Origin: Myroides phaeus
GTDB lineage: Bacteria > Bacteroidota > Bacteroidia > Flavobacteriales > Flavobacteriaceae
Assembly (NCBI RefSeq): GCF_009799805.1
Contig: NZ_CP047050.1
Coordinates: 124,001-188,000 of the forward strand
Length of the DNA stretch: 64,000 nt
Direction: 5' to 3'
The position numbers and the translations under genes were made by a program. Below are positions 6,919-56,461 of this stretch, piece by piece; position 1 is the first letter of the stretch, and each line of letters opens with the position of its first letter. Below the pieces are notes generated by a model. That model saw nothing but the letters and a program-made list of their open reading frames with translations. It did not search any database and was not told where the DNA came from.

Positions 6919-6949
6919 AAAAAAGGCTTGTCGTTCGACAAGCCTTTTT
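6919..6949 (-). terminator. Attenuator terminator upstream of trpB
   Basis: On the minus strand a 13-14 bp perfect stem (AAAAGGCTTGTCG / CGACAAGCCTTTT, 2-nt loop) is followed by a run of nine Ts. It lies between the leader peptide stop and the trpB start, so it ends transcription before trpB. Its 5' arm contains AAGGCU, which can pair with AG(U)CCUU in the leader coding sequence (one bulged U), giving a plausible antiterminator. Confidence 0.88.
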
Positions 6950-6971
6950 CAATTATATATATTATTTCTTA

Positions 6972-7058
6972 TTAACTCATATATACATAGCAAGGACTGC
7001 TCACGACGTCTGACGTAAGTTTAGTCCACCACCAAGTATTTGTAAGAATTAAATTCAT
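6972..7058 (-). CDS. trpL: trp operon leader peptide (28 aa, Trp-Trp-Trp)
   Basis: ATG at 7058, TAA at 6972: MNLILTNTWWWTKLTS... with three consecutive TGG codons at residues 9-11, ending VYMS. The arrangement is the classical one: promoter at 7080-7105, short ORF with consecutive codons for the pathway product, then a rho-independent terminator, then trpB. Ribosome stalling at the Trp codons when charged tRNA-Trp is scarce would cover the TGGTGGTGGACT segment and free AGTCCTT to pair with AAGGCT of the terminator stem. GGACT of the Trp segment can otherwise pair with AGTCC. The gene organisation is seen directly; the mechanism is inferred by analogy with enteric trp attenuation. Confidence 0.85.
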   Translation of the reverse strand: MNLILTNTWWWTKLTSDVVSSPCYVYMS

Positions 7059-7079
7059 TTTTCTCTTTGTATTGAGTGA

Positions 7080-7105
7080 CAAATGTAAAAAGTTTTTTTT
7101 ACAAA
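7080..7105 (-). promoter_or_regulatory. Promoter of the trpL-trpB unit
   Basis: -7 box TACATTTG (7080-7087) and -33 TTTG (7102-7105) with 14 bp between them. The start point would be near 7073, about 15 nt before the leader peptide ATG. Confidence 0.7.
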
Positions 7106-7164: not shown

Positions 7165-7815
7165 CTATAGTGAAACCATTGCATCTTTTACTGCTGTAAT
7201 TTCAGATGTATCATATCCACTAAAAGTTTTTAAATAAGTACGTATTGAAGTACCGAACCCATCTTCAAAGCTATTTAAACCATTGCTGTTTAAAAACTTT
7301 TTTACAGAACCTGCCCCACCTAAGTGAGCCGCAGCTAAAATACCTGATTCTGTAATTGAGATTCCTCCTATACGTTTTCCGTCAAATTTTTCAATCTCTT
7401 TTCTTAATATCCATTTATTTTTTGAAACTAAAGCATCAAATGCTTTCTCTTGTTTCAAAGGATTATCAAGAAAATCACTTGTATCAGTAATACCAATTGA
7501 ACGTAGTGCTAATTTTCCAAATTGATATTTTCCCATGTACCCATAAGAATTTACAATTTTGTATAATCCGTAAGATTCTCGCACTGCCAATGCCTGTTTA
7601 AAACCGACATAACTCTTTCCGATAAACGGTATTGCTACTAACTTTCCATTTGCAGTTTCCGACTCTTCTTCACTTGTTGGAAACTCATATGATAAGGGTG
7701 ATTCAGGTACTATTTTGTACTCTTCTAATAACATAGTTTCATACTTTTTGAAACCTGATACAACACCTCCTGTTAATAAAACAAGACCGATAAAAAAAGA
7801 ACATTTTTTTCTCAT
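7165..7815 (-). CDS. Lysozyme-like / transglycosylase-like exported protein
   Basis: I chose the ATG at 7815 (216 aa) because it gives a clean membrane-targeting N-terminus (MRKKCSFFIGLVLLTGGVVSG). An in-frame GTG at 7845 would add 10 residues and bury it. The -7 box at 7862-7869 allows either. The core resembles the lysozyme-like fold: RESYGLYKIVN with a candidate catalytic Glu, then YGYMGKYQFGKLAL and, later, AAHLGGAGSVKKFLNSNG. Proteins of this type cleave peptidoglycan glycan strands or occur in cell-envelope hydrolases. The assignment rests on motif resemblance and should be treated as family-level only. Monocistronic. Confidence 0.72.
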   Translation of the reverse strand: MRKKCSFFIGLVLLTGGVVSGFKKYETMLLEEYKIVPESPLSYEFPTSEEESETANGKLVAIPFIGKSYVGFKQALAVRESYGLYKIVNSYGYMGKYQFGKLALRSIGITDTSDFLDNPLKQEKAFDALVSKNKWILRKEIEKFDGKRIGGISITESGILAAAHLGGAGSVKKFLNSNGLNSFEDGFGTSIRTYLKTFSGYDTSEITAVKDAMVSL

Positions 7816-7861
7816 TAAAACTAATTTCTCAAGCCCTGTCACCACTTGAAATTTCTGAGGG

Positions 7862-15361: not shown

Positions 15362-16300
15362 TTACTGCTGTACAAGTTCTTTTTTCTCTGTTTTATTCTT
15401 GTAATAATTCTTCCATCTTTTAGGAAGCACCCCTGTTTTTAGGTGCGCTTGATTAGGAGTTAATCTATCACAACTATTGTGAGGTCTAATTTGATTATAA
15501 GCTTCTATGCTATTACCTATTTTTTCCTTAGTTTTTTGATACCCTAAACTTGAGTAGTTTAGATTAAACTCTCCTTTAATTATGCCATTTACTCGCTCTG
15601 CTATTGCGTTATCTCTTGGCTCTCCACTTTGTGTAGTACTTATTGATATATCGTTATCTATTAATAACTGAGTGTAAGTAGCGCTACAGTATTGGCATCC
15701 TCTATCAGAATGATGAATAAGTTTTTCTGTATACATTCTATTTTTTAACGCCATTGTTAAGGCTTTCAAACACCCTTTTGTAGTCAAATCTAGATTAAAA
15801 CTATATCCCATTATTTTATGTGAATAAGCATCTGTGATTAAACTCAGATATCCCCAAGCATTATTTAGTCGTATATATGTAATATCACTTACCCAAAATT
15901 GCTCTGGTCTAATAACCTTTACACCATTATACAAGTCCAAATATTGACCTCTCCATGCTCTAGAATCTGTTGTGTATGCTTTTCGTTTGCGCTGCCTAAT
16001 CAACATTTTTTGACTATCTAATAAATCAAATAAATAATCTCTGCCTATGCTTATCTTATGTGTAGCTAAGCGTTCTTGGAGCATATACTGAAGTTTTCGA
16101 GTACCTACCTTAGGAAGGCTGGTTCTGATTTTCAATACTTCTTGTAAGATGATATCATCTTTTATTGATTGCCGCTCATATTTATTAATTGACTGATAAT
16201 AAGCACTTCGTGTTTTCCCAAACAGTTTACATATTTTGTCTATTCCCTTGGTAGGATATAAGAGTTTTACTTCTTCAACTGCTTGGAACCAGACTTTTTT
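15362..16300 (-). CDS. IS3-family transposase OrfB (rve integrase domain), expressed by frameshift
   Basis: The OrfB frame opens just after a TAG at the slippery site (16300) and ends at 15362, 312 codons. It has no ATG near its beginning (an internal TTG lies at 16135), so it is most likely made only as an OrfAB fusion. An HTH_21-like segment (DKICKLFGKTRSAYYQ) precedes the DDE catalytic core: Asp in WVSDITYI, Asp in LIHHSDRGCQY and Glu in AIAERVNGIIKGEF. It performs copy-out/paste-in transposition. All three catalytic acids are present and no stop interrupts the frame, so the element looks intact. Confidence 0.88.
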   Translation of the reverse strand, partial: KKVWFQAVEEVKLLYPTKGIDKICKLFGKTRSAYYQSINKYERQSIKDDIILQEVLKIRTSLPKVGTRKLQYMLQERLATHKISIGRDYLFDLLDSQKMLIRQRKRKAYTTDSRAWRGQYLDLYNGVKVIRPEQFWVSDITYIRLNNAWGYLSLITDAYSHKIMGYSFNLDLTTKGCLKALTMALKNRMYTEKLIHHSDRGCQYCSATYTQLLIDNDISISTTQSGEPRDNAIAERVNGIIKGEFNLNYSSLGYQKTKEKIGNSIEAYNQIRPHNSCDRLTPNQAHLKTGVLPKRWKNYYKNKTEKKELVQQ

Positions 16301-16812
16301 CTAATATCAATATCCAATTTTTTTTCTGCTACATCAATCAAAGTATTTAATGCTACTATCTTAAATTGTGCTTCAGCTAAAGCCTTTTTTAAAGCTTTTA
16401 CTTCTAAAGATTCTAAATTAGTTGTTTTTTCTTCCATAAGAATTGGAATGTTAATTTCTTTACAAAGATCTTTGTTTTTATTGTAATTAACTAACAACCA
16501 ATTTGTTATTGTACTTTTACTTTCGATTCCATACGCTATACAAGCTTCTTTTATAGTCATTTTGTGTTCTGTAATACTATGAACTACTTGACGTTTTAAG
16601 CTTTCTGAATAAATTTTATTCCTGCGTGTTTGATGAAACTCTATACTTCCATATTTCTTGATCCAACGACTCACCGTTGGTTGCCTTAAATCATACTTGA
16701 GAGTAACTGAACTTTGGGTAGCTCCATTTTCTATTTCTTGAATTACTTTTTCAATAAATTTCAAGTGATAACGATCTGTCTTTTTTTGTCTTGTTTGATT
16801 ACTATTTTCCAT
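16267..16812 (-). CDS. IS3-family transposase OrfA (helix-turn-helix)
   Basis: 181 residues, long for OrfA. It has two HTH-like regions: SSVTLKYDLRQPTVSRWIKKYG (residues about 34-55) and MTIKEACIAYGIESKSTITNWL (about 85-106). A C-terminal coiled-coil segment (LKKALAEAQFKIVALNTLIDVAEKKL) is typical of IS150-like OrfA. It binds the element's ends and regulates transposition. The reading frame overlaps OrfB, and the heptamer A_AAA_AAG at 16294-16300 lies 9 codons before its stop. Confidence 0.88.
   Translation of the reverse strand: MENSNQTRQKKTDRYHLKFIEKVIQEIENGATQSSVTLKYDLRQPTVSRWIKKYGSIEFHQTRRNKIYSESLKRQVVHSITEHKMTIKEACIAYGIESKSTITNWLLVNYNKNKDLCKEINIPILMEEKTTNLESLEVKALKKALAEAQFKIVALNTLIDVAEKKLDIDIRKKSGSKQLKK
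16294..16300 (-). promoter_or_regulatory. -1 programmed frameshift heptamer
   Basis: Minus strand A AAA AAG in the OrfA frame (codons AGA AAA AAG). A -1 slip moves ribosomes into the OrfB frame, which is closed immediately upstream by TAG. This is the standard IS3-family expression signal. Confidence 0.8.
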
Positions 16813-54895: not shown

Positions 54896-54968
54896 TGACC
54901 CGACTGGGGCTCGAACCCAGGACCCCAACATTAAAAGTGTTGTGCTCTACCAACTGAGCTATCGAGTC
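54896..54968 (-). tRNA. tRNA-Lys (anticodon TTT), copy 1
   Basis: 73 nt. Acceptor GACTCGA / TCGGGTC (with G-T pair), discriminator A, anticodon stem CAACA/TGTTG with loop CTTTTAA, T-loop GGTTCGAGCCC. Identical to six more copies in this window. Confidence 0.97.
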
Positions 54969-55059
54969 ATTAAATCTTTTTCTACTGACCTTCTTTAAAA
55001 TAAAAATATCAGCATTCTTGCAAAATTTTATTTTCACATACTAAAGACATGAAAATAAA

Positions 55060-55083
55060 AAAGCTGAGATTGATCTCAGCTTT
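55060..55083 (-). terminator. Terminator after tRNA-Lys copy 2
   Basis: AAAGCTGAGAT / ATCTCAGCTTT, 11-bp stem with TG loop. Nearly the same stem as at 54869-54894, which suggests the tRNA and terminator were duplicated together. Confidence 0.82.
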
Positions 55084-55084
55084 G

Positions 55085-55157
55085 TGACCCGACTGGGGCT
55101 CGAACCCAGGACCCCAACATTAAAAGTGTTGTGCTCTACCAACTGAGCTATCGAGTC
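55085..55157 (-). tRNA. tRNA-Lys (anticodon TTT), copy 2
   Basis: 73 nt, same sequence as copy 1. A -7 box TACCTTTG lies at 55193-55200, and a terminator at 55060-55083, so it is its own unit. Confidence 0.97.
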
Positions 55158-55192
55158 ATTGATAAACATTTATTTGTTTCTCAATTGCTGTG

Positions 55193-55200
55193 CAAAGGTA
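55193..55200 (-). promoter_or_regulatory. -7 box of tRNA-Lys copy 2
   Basis: TACCTTTG on the minus strand, 36 bp before the tRNA. Confidence 0.45.
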
Positions 55201-55452
55201 GCCTTTTTTGAAAACTACACAAACATAGATATCACTTTTTTTAAAAAAAAATCACCCAACATTTTAAACACCACAGTATGAGTAAATAAGACTATAAAAT
55301 ATTTTATGTTATTTATTACATTTAAAGAACAGTTTAAAAAACACCATTTAAGATGTTTATAACTCACTCAAATACATATATGACAAATATCATTTTAAAT
55401 GTTAAATTTAATACATACCTTTATTGTTAAAATAACAAAAATAAAACATATT

Positions 55453-55611
55453 ATGACTTTACACAACTTACCTCTTTACAACTTTGGTAACGGAACTTTT
55501 ATGATCATTATCTTCGCATTAGTTTGTGTTGCCTTAGTTATCGCATTGTTCATGATGATGGGGAATTCGAAAAAAGTAAATGATGATGATGAAAAAACAG
55601 AAGAAAACTAA
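55453..55611 (+). CDS. Small single-span membrane protein (52 aa), unknown
   Basis: I choose the ATG at 55453, the one nearest the membrane helix; the frame opens at 55399 but the extra 18 residues look like non-coding sequence. MTLHNLPLYNFGNGTF leads to one helix (about 15-35, MIIIFALVCVALVIALFMMM), then an acidic tail NDDDEKTEEN. It lies between tRNA genes and has a strong terminator just downstream. I know of no family; the charged tail and short N-terminus resemble other Bacteroidota small membrane proteins. Confidence 0.62.
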   Translation: MTLHNLPLYNFGNGTFMIIIFALVCVALVIALFMMMGNSKKVNDDDEKTEEN

Positions 55612-55650
55612 AAATAAAGCTACTTAATCACTTAAGTAGCTTTATTTTTT
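55612..55650 (+). terminator. Terminator after the 52-aa gene
   Basis: AAATAAAGCTACTTAA / TTAAGTAGCTTTATTT, 16-bp perfect stem, TCAC loop, T run. Confidence 0.87.
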
Positions 55651-55700
55651 TACCGCCTTTTTTCTCAAAAAAATAACAAGAGTGTCTGTATAAAACAAAA

Positions 55701-55730
55701 AAAGACAACTGAATACATTCAATTGTCTTT
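55701..55730 (-). terminator. Terminator of tRNA-Leu
   Basis: AAAGACAAcTGAA / TTCAaTTGTCTTT, 12 of 13 pairs, TACA loop, 7 bp beyond the tRNA on the minus strand. Confidence 0.8.
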
Positions 55731-55736
55731 CTTAAG

Positions 55737-55818
55737 TGACCGCGATCAGATTCGAACTGACACGTCTTGCGACACCACCCCCTCAAGATGGCGAGTCTAC
55801 CAATTCCTCCACGCGGCC
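55737..55818 (-). tRNA. tRNA-Leu (anticodon GAG)
   Basis: 82 nt with a variable arm. Acceptor GGCCGCG / CGCGGTC, discriminator A, anticodon stem CCATC/GGTGG with loop TTGAGGG, T-loop AGTTCGAATCT. It sits between the two tRNA-Lys groups. Confidence 0.93.
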
Positions 55819-55942
55819 GGTAGTTATATATTCTTTATCCTAAAGTTATGAATAATATTTACTTTTCATTAAAGCAAGGCACAAAAATATTAGGCGTTTC
55901 ATTTGAAAAATAAAAATACATCTTCTCTTCTATAAAACAGAA

Positions 55943-55968
55943 AAAGCTACTCCGTAAAGAGTAGCTTT
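55943..55968 (-). terminator. Terminator of the five-gene tRNA-Lys array
   Basis: AAAGCTACTC / GAGTAGCTTT, 10-bp stem, CGTAAA loop, T run on the minus strand, 1 bp from tRNA-Lys copy 3. Confidence 0.8.
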
Positions 55969-55969
55969 G

Positions 55970-56042
55970 TGACCCGACTGGGGCTCGAACCCAGGACCCC
56001 AACATTAAAAGTGTTGTGCTCTACCAACTGAGCTATCGAGTC
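55970..56042 (-). tRNA. tRNA-Lys (anticodon TTT), copy 3
   Basis: 73 nt, identical to copy 1. Last gene of the five-copy array on the minus strand. Confidence 0.97.
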
Positions 56043-56073
56043 AGTGTATTTCTGAAAGTGATTTTTATTTTTG

Positions 56074-56146
56074 TGACCCGACTGGGGCTCGAACCCAGGA
56101 CCCCAACATTAAAAGTGTTGTGCTCTACCAACTGAGCTATCGAGTC
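56074..56146 (-). tRNA. tRNA-Lys (anticodon TTT), copy 4
   Basis: 73 nt, identical to copy 1. Separated from copy 3 by a 31-bp spacer containing TTTCTGAAA. Confidence 0.97.
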
Positions 56147-56180
56147 AATGTTATTTCTGAAACTATACTTTTGATCTTTG

Positions 56181-56253
56181 TGACCCGACTGGGGCTCGAA
56201 CCCAGGACCCCAACATTAAAAGTGTTGTGCTCTACCAACTGAGCTATCGAGTC
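56181..56253 (-). tRNA. tRNA-Lys (anticodon TTT), copy 5
   Basis: 73 nt, identical to copy 1. Spacer to copy 4 is 34 bp and again contains TTTCTGAAA. Confidence 0.97.
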
Positions 56254-56285
56254 AATGTTTCAGAAATGACTATTTATTTTATATG

Positions 56286-56358
56286 TGACCCGACTGGGGC
56301 TCGAACCCAGGACCCCAACATTAAAAGTGTTGTGCTCTACCAACTGAGCTATCGAGTC
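56286..56358 (-). tRNA. tRNA-Lys (anticodon TTT), copy 6
   Basis: 73 nt, identical to copy 1. The 32-bp spacer to copy 5 contains TTTCAGAAA. Confidence 0.97.
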
Positions 56359-56388
56359 AATGCTAATAAGAAATTGAATATGATTTTG

Positions 56389-56461
56389 TGACCCGACTGG
56401 GGCTCGAACCCAGGACCCCAACATTAAAAGTGTTGTGCTCTACCAACTGAGCTATCGAGTC
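56389..56461 (-). tRNA. tRNA-Lys (anticodon TTT), copy 7
   Basis: 73 nt, identical to copy 1. First gene of the five-copy array. Confidence 0.97.

Follow-up and report, generated by a model that had tools for sequence, protein, structure and literature searches.

In trpL attenuation of Escherichia coli, Trp codons lie in strand 1 of the leader RNA, accompanied by an alternative strand 2, a terminator and a T run. The Bacteroid-trp element was listed in 2010 (PMC2864571) and was reported before the trp operon of Flavobacterium psychrophilum (PMC6414381). Indole salvage by TrpB is described for Bifidobacterium and for TrpB1/TrpB2 of Thermococcus (PMC11085991), TrpB of Chlamydia trpRBA converts outside indole to tryptophan (PMC7755916), and Pelodictyon luteolum has a stand-alone TrpB with a six-residue signature (PMC11917138). 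Searches of the open-licence literature gave no paper that describes a Bacteroid-trp leader before a lone trpB, a Lys version of Bacteroid-trp, pairing between leader and terminator loop or trp regulation in Myroides.

The locus described here lies in the window, the whole 64,000-nucleotide stretch that was analysed. Its attenuator element is known; the use before a lone trpB is new. Judged from sequence, a ribosome-mediated Bacteroid-trp attenuator probably controls a single gene here, which would encode a TrpA-independent TrpB for indole salvage. Comparison supports the attenuation well, and we infer the salvage.

The leader in front of trpB

The preliminary description had named a 28-codon leader ORF with three consecutive TGG codons, a 13-bp terminator hairpin with nine Ts followed by trpB, and the pairings GGACT:AGTCC and AG(U)CCUU:AAGGCU. 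All of these are present on the minus strand (Table 1). The long reading frame of the leader and the base-pairing between leader and terminator loop were missing from that description. The promoter proposed there, TTTG-N14-TACATTTG, can be read as well; a second TTTG at N19, which had gone unmentioned, is closer than N14 to the promoter spacing of Bacteroidetes and forms a candidate promoter. In the same window, two ORFs resemble a transposase pair, and the seven tRNA genes of a cluster are probably recent tandem copies.

Table 1. Features of the trpB leader locus and further features of the window; positions count from the first letter of the window.
Feature	Position	Strand	Details	Basis
Leader ORF	7058-6972	minus	28 codons plus stop, MNLILTNTWWWTKLTSDVVSSPCYVYMS; counterparts in the remaining eight lone-trpB loci span 26-31 codons	ORF reading
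Trp codons TGGTGGTGG	7034-7026	minus		read from sequence
Hairpin 1:2 over the Trp codons	7039-6983	minus	includes GGACU:AGUCC and CUUACG:CGUGAG	MFE structure
Antiterminator 5' strand	7007-6992	minus	GUCGU (7007-7003) and AG(U)CCUU (6998-6992), complementary to 6934-6930 and 6946-6941, respectively	sequence
Intrinsic terminator	6949-6916	minus	13-bp stem with arms 6949-6937 and 6932-6920, loop GAAC, nine Ts (T run 6924-6916); a 14th pair (G-U) is possible	
Lone trpB	6883-5702	minus	393 aa	TIGR00263, 579.4 bits, cut-off 392.45
RF01692 (Bacteroid-trp) match	7078-6937	minus	54 bp between match and trpB start	covariance-model score 68.2 bits, gathering 49, E 2.4e-6 over the 64-kb window
Promoter-like elements	7110-7080	minus	TACATTTG 7087-7080; TTTG 7105-7102 (N14) and 7110-7107 (N19)	sequence
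226-aa ORF upstream of the leader	7165-7845	minus	no match in NCBIfam and Pfam	
Two ORFs, IS3-type transposase pair	15362-16812	minus		resemblance by eye
Cluster of seven tRNA genes	54896-56461	minus	equal scores (70.2 bits)	Rfam

The leader scores above the gathering threshold of RF01692, and a new RNA class was rejected for this reason. Consecutive Trp codons (WWW) are located in its 28-codon ORF, and a gene of Trp biosynthesis, trpB, follows directly 3', although a lone trpB is unusual for this family. Folds, pair counts and a swap test across the family, given below, indicate mutually exclusive 1:2, antiterminator and terminator hairpins. On the same strand of the region, no T-box and no other Rfam leader class reached gathering; the matches to BTnc231, Phe_leader, BSnc120, L20_leader and Atu_C9 were all below it. 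The whole leader folds with z = -6.46 (0/200 shuffles equally stable), the 61-nt hairpin with z = -3.39 and the terminator with z = -6.27 (1/200 each). The preliminary description had seen a trp attenuator with alternative pairings like those of E. coli. The pairings hold, but the element is not new: the locus truly belongs to a known family, whose setting here is new and whose physiological role here is plausibly new as well.

Sequence comparison establishes the anatomy, and it suggests the following course. With ample Trp-tRNA, the ribosome would clear the Trp codons and translate the long leader ORF to its end. Behind it, hairpin 1:2 would re-form, and the terminator would halt RNA polymerase before trpB. 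With scarce Trp-tRNA, the ribosome would stall at the Trp codons and cover strand 1. The free strand 2 (GUCGU...AGUCCUU) could then pair with the terminator (5' arm, loop and first part of the 3' arm), which would allow trpB to be read. The lone TrpB would most likely transform free indole and serine into tryptophan.

Lone trpB loci of the Myroides lineage

A match to RF01692 with E ≤ 0.01 is present in 154 of 199 family genomes, in 123 of them above the cut-off. The distance between leader and trpB was compared for the 150 leader rows listed, 131 by script and 19 by eye. In at least 120 of the 131 script-compared rows, a listed trpB follows on the same strand of the same contig: once directly (the window locus, 54 bp) and in 119 cases at 4.4-10.2 kb. 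The rows checked by eye contain one further pair, at 4.6 kb. Among the matches listed, those of trpB included, this amounts to a lower bound of at least 121 leader-trpB pairs; 120 are more than 4 kb apart and only the window locus is direct.

In the wider GTDB genus, 76 of 101 genomes have a TrpB-like match, some only to distant PLP enzymes. A leader stands directly before trpB in five of these genomes by eye inspection of coordinates: G000, the genome of the window, G218, G256, G269 and G273. A protein search added M. phaeus, M. marinus, M. pelagicus and the Flavobacteriaceae MAG Pcu381_bin47; it also found M. albus, whose contigs are those of G218. Together these are nine distinct genomes of the Myroides lineage with leader and lone trpB. 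A counterpart of the 226-aa ORF of the window adjoins all nine loci upstream of leader and trpB. On the other side, fumC is located in G000, M. phaeus, M. marinus, M. albus and G269; it does not adjoin in M. pelagicus, the MAG, G256 and G273. In the remaining flavobacterial loci of the protein search with enough flank, trpB adjoins other trp genes. The -7 box, identified by eye, reads TACATTTG, TACCTTTG or TATATTTG in M. phaeus, M. marinus, M. albus, the MAG and G269 and TACCTTTA in G256 and G273; it is weaker in M. pelagicus.

The preliminary description held that loss of leader ORF, Trp codons or terminator in relatives would speak against an attenuator. Since all three are kept in the nine loci, the sequences raise no such objection. 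The consecutive Trp codons are TGG TGG TGG in eight loci and TGG TGG in G269. In an alignment of the nine rows, which are few and related, the 1:2 hairpin and the terminator are paired in 91.9% of 322 cells. Five pairs are changed on both sides, three in the outer hairpin (helix 1) and two in the terminator, a number reached by 20 of 500 shuffles. No shuffle (0/500) had as high a covariation score for the two hairpins; the count of further pair types for the 1:2 structure was as high in 487/500 and does not favour the structure. The antiterminator pairs GUCGU:ACGAC and AG(U)CCUU:AAGGCU are formed in 94 of 97 cells, without a change on both sides and no better than in shuffles. Of the three hairpins proposed for a covariation test, 1:2 and the terminator thus have pairs changed on both sides in these nine loci, and the antiterminator has none.

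The pairing between leader and terminator loop is short (5-6 bp) in several lone leaders, the window's included. This would suit a relic, that is, a leader that has ceased to regulate and a terminator that merely damps expression. Such a decay is very improbable: diverged species have kept the sequence of the leader, hairpin and terminator carry paired changes, and Trp codons are kept in 9/9 lone leaders.

The genome of the window consists of a single contig of 3.11 Mb, and its TrpB is 98-99% identical to the TrpB of Myroides phaeus. Locally, trpB is solitary as first described, but genome-wide it is not. A second trpB (63% identical) is part of a complete trpEGDCFBA operon with trpA at a distance of 0.63 Mb, and the idea of a lone trpB as the sole trp gene of the genome was rejected. 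The operon has its own leader, MNTQFLNTNWWWLTQSDKGFSWLCCVFK, with a RF01692 score of only 45.1 bits (gathering 49).

Operon leaders of the lineage have features of their own. The trpE leaders at L249, L250 and L002:1520-1690 have lost the common GUCGUGA core; by eye, a GGGUU(C) stretch of the leader stands opposite (G)AACCC in the loop of the terminator. M. albus has two tandem Trp leaders before trpE, 211 bp apart (L148, minus strand, ~11380-10975). Each has its own terminator, and between the two the leader and loop segments have changed in step, with GGGUU/AACCC in one and GGAUUC/GAAUCC in the other (by eye).

Loop pairing, reading frame and a Lys version of the leader

The family set contained one leader per genome from 88 genomes, drawn from the best RF01692 loci, loci found by pattern and weak RF01692 loci lacking the pattern; L217 (no usable terminator) and L212 (none) were left out. 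None of the ten weak matches L201-L210 had the stricter core pattern. TCGTGA is present in 73 of the 88 leaders and CACGA in 80 of the 88 terminator loops. Leaders were paired with their own terminator loop and 3' arm and with those of others, in permutations that ignore relatedness: the mean duplex energy was -9.67 for own partners and -9.15 ± 0.11 for permuted ones, with 0/5000 permutations as good. For eight leaders with deviant terminator loops, the values were -10.44 and -7.57 (2/20000 as good). The deviant segments of leader and loop match in G043 (GUCGCAAU/AUUGCGAC), G151 (UCGUAAAC/GUUUACGA) and G186 (UCGUAAUC/GAUUACGA). In G060 and G101, the own terminator pairs worse than the median other terminator. 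Across the family, leader and terminator co-vary in the way expected if the stop-codon region of the leader paired with the terminator loop and 3' arm. Support for the 5' strand of the antiterminator comes from this family-wide swap, not from the nine lone loci.

An unaided scan of column pairs in the 88 relatives recovered the core hairpin and the terminator. The pair closing CUUACG:CGUGAG is changed on both sides in 28 rows. The 45 best pairs of the scan include no leader-loop pair, and most of those listed are non-structural; the leader-loop pairs hardly vary across the family.

For 87 of the 88 leaders in the family set, the stop codon begins no more than 9 nt past the segment that pairs with the loop. 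It is placed 2-10 codons past the last Trp codon, and typical leader peptides end with LRQTS, the UGA being part of GUCGUGA. In each of the nine lone leaders, 15-20 codons separate the last Trp codon from the stop, the frame having changed in different ways. The same length, 15-20 codons, recurs in five trpE leaders of the Myroides lineage. We read the ordinary arrangement as one in which the terminating ribosome would cover the antiterminator strand. The long frame would shift the end point of the ribosome past this strand, and hairpin 1:2 would have to re-form.

A Lys-codon version with the same core and terminator was found in six genomes (G000, G218, G269, G216, G022 and G089). The gene behind it is an aspartate kinase (TIGR00657 above cut-off) in 6/6, with a diaminopimelate decarboxylase-type gene next in G000 and G269. 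The rule used found no ATG start for the Lys leader in G022 and G089. In the genome of the window, this third leader on the same scaffold, MFISVIKKGKKQYLRKKS, is located at L192:600-700 (G000:C1:1643124-1643189).

A wider reading is quite possible and is put forward tentatively. The trp operon may have been reduced to leader and trpB, a one-gene salvage system that has shed the TrpA interface. The antiterminator of the family would capture the terminator loop, and the scaffold would be a modular Flavobacteriaceae sensor in which mainly the codons are exchanged. Within this reading, the modular sensor for amino acids is deduced from the Lys-coded versions before aspartate kinase.

Lone TrpB, pathway loss and known systems

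The nine lone TrpBs form one clade (support 100/100) on a long stem branch (0.46), which joins five operon TrpBs from the wider genus (83/87). The four operon TrpBs of the Myroides lineage are a separate clade outside the other sampled flavobacterial TrpBs (open fork, 92/89), and the TrpA tree did not separate a foreign from a native origin of the operon. Given these placements, the lone trpB may be the native gene that remained after loss of an operon regained later, or it may be a duplicate; we lean towards the native remnant.

The 48 other operon TrpBs share 210 invariant positions; at 21 of these, every one of the nine lone TrpBs differs. Eleven positions are named in PMC8187860 and PMC6608616 as contacting TrpA. 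Ten of them belong to the invariant ones, and four of these ten (20, 168, 171 and 175 in Salmonella numbering) differ in 9/9 lone TrpBs and in 0/4 operon TrpBs of the Myroides lineage. The eleventh, 179, is changed too; S161, G162, K167, Q288 and G292 are kept in all or most. The conserved TrpA-facing residues of a TrpA-dependent TrpB are therefore not all present. The changes are enriched at the interface (4/10 versus 17/200, one-sided Fisher p 0.011), a clustering noticed before the literature-named positions were consulted; post hoc counts for the regions 160-185 and 274-300 were replaced by these positions. The Salmonella numbers follow from the start of the alignment and from sequence landmarks that we take to be the corresponding ones.

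Searches for TrpA (E ≤ 1) and TrpD in the nine genomes gave no match in G256, G269, G273 and the MAG Pcu381_bin47. TrpE had no full-length match there, only partial ones of 29-38% identity that seem to resemble other chorismate-using enzymes. G256 and G273 are single-contig genomes and G269 is 99% complete. The other five genomes have full-length matches for TrpA, TrpD and TrpE. Tryptophanase (TIGR02617) was found in none of the nine (control: 4/14 genomes). Any tryptophan made in the four genomes would therefore need outside indole; the putative salvage reaction is the sole step to tryptophan that can be seen in relatives lacking a trp operon. In the other five, the full operon with trpA means that salvage is not forced.

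The complete operon in these five genomes and the Trp attenuators on both promoters in the genome of the window fit a spare, starvation-induced TrpB that still partners the operon TrpA and raises capacity at low tryptophan. This is unlikely, as the lone TrpB persists in four genomes without a trpA match and the four TrpA-facing positions are changed throughout. The long stem branch and the 21 changed positions could also point to a different PLP reaction, such as deamination of serine or threonine or use of a substituted indole, with an attenuator that was inherited or simply signals Trp shortage. We consider that improbable too: the match to the TrpB model is far above the cut-off, the Trp codons are kept in 9/9, and the PLP-lysine, the catalytic Glu and the Ser motifs, at what we take to be their landmarks, are unchanged by eye. 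A switch and gene kept in relatives where no match to the rest of the pathway was found suggest regulated synthesis of tryptophan from scavenged indole.

If true, the locus would show how a biosynthetic operon can be trimmed in nature until only the sensor and the last enzyme are left, with a Trp-regulated use of indole, a compound traded within bacterial communities. Lone TrpBs of species with and without trpA provide a natural series for the loss of TrpA dependence. Through the leader-loop pairing and the Lys version, a phylum-specific attenuator that has been little described becomes open to direct tests; they also show that searching by Trp codons alone overlooks members of the family.

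The leader resembles E. coli trpL in having Trp codons in strand 1, an alternative strand 2, a terminator and a T run. Here, the partner of the antiterminator includes the terminator loop and 3' arm, and there is a single target gene; the likeness is one of layout, and no sequence relation is claimed. The stand-alone TrpB of P. luteolum reportedly acts without TrpA, as the lone TrpB putatively does. The six-residue signature given there (Res6, PMC11917138) is incomplete as a set in the lone TrpBs by eye (LBCA alignment), which have other interface changes instead. With Bifidobacterium, Thermococcus and Chlamydia, the locus shares a TrpB that turns outside indole into tryptophan, here as a putative salvage; it differs by a trpB that stands alone and is Trp-attenuated, no trpA having been found in 4/9 genomes. 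RF01692 itself (PMC2864571, PMC6414381) shares with the locus the Trp leader ORF, the hairpin and the conserved AAAAAGGCUUGUC terminator arm. The Rfam model contains no leader-loop pairing, and the locus of the window precedes a lone trpB instead of a trp operon, with a leader ORF that extends further past the Trp codons.
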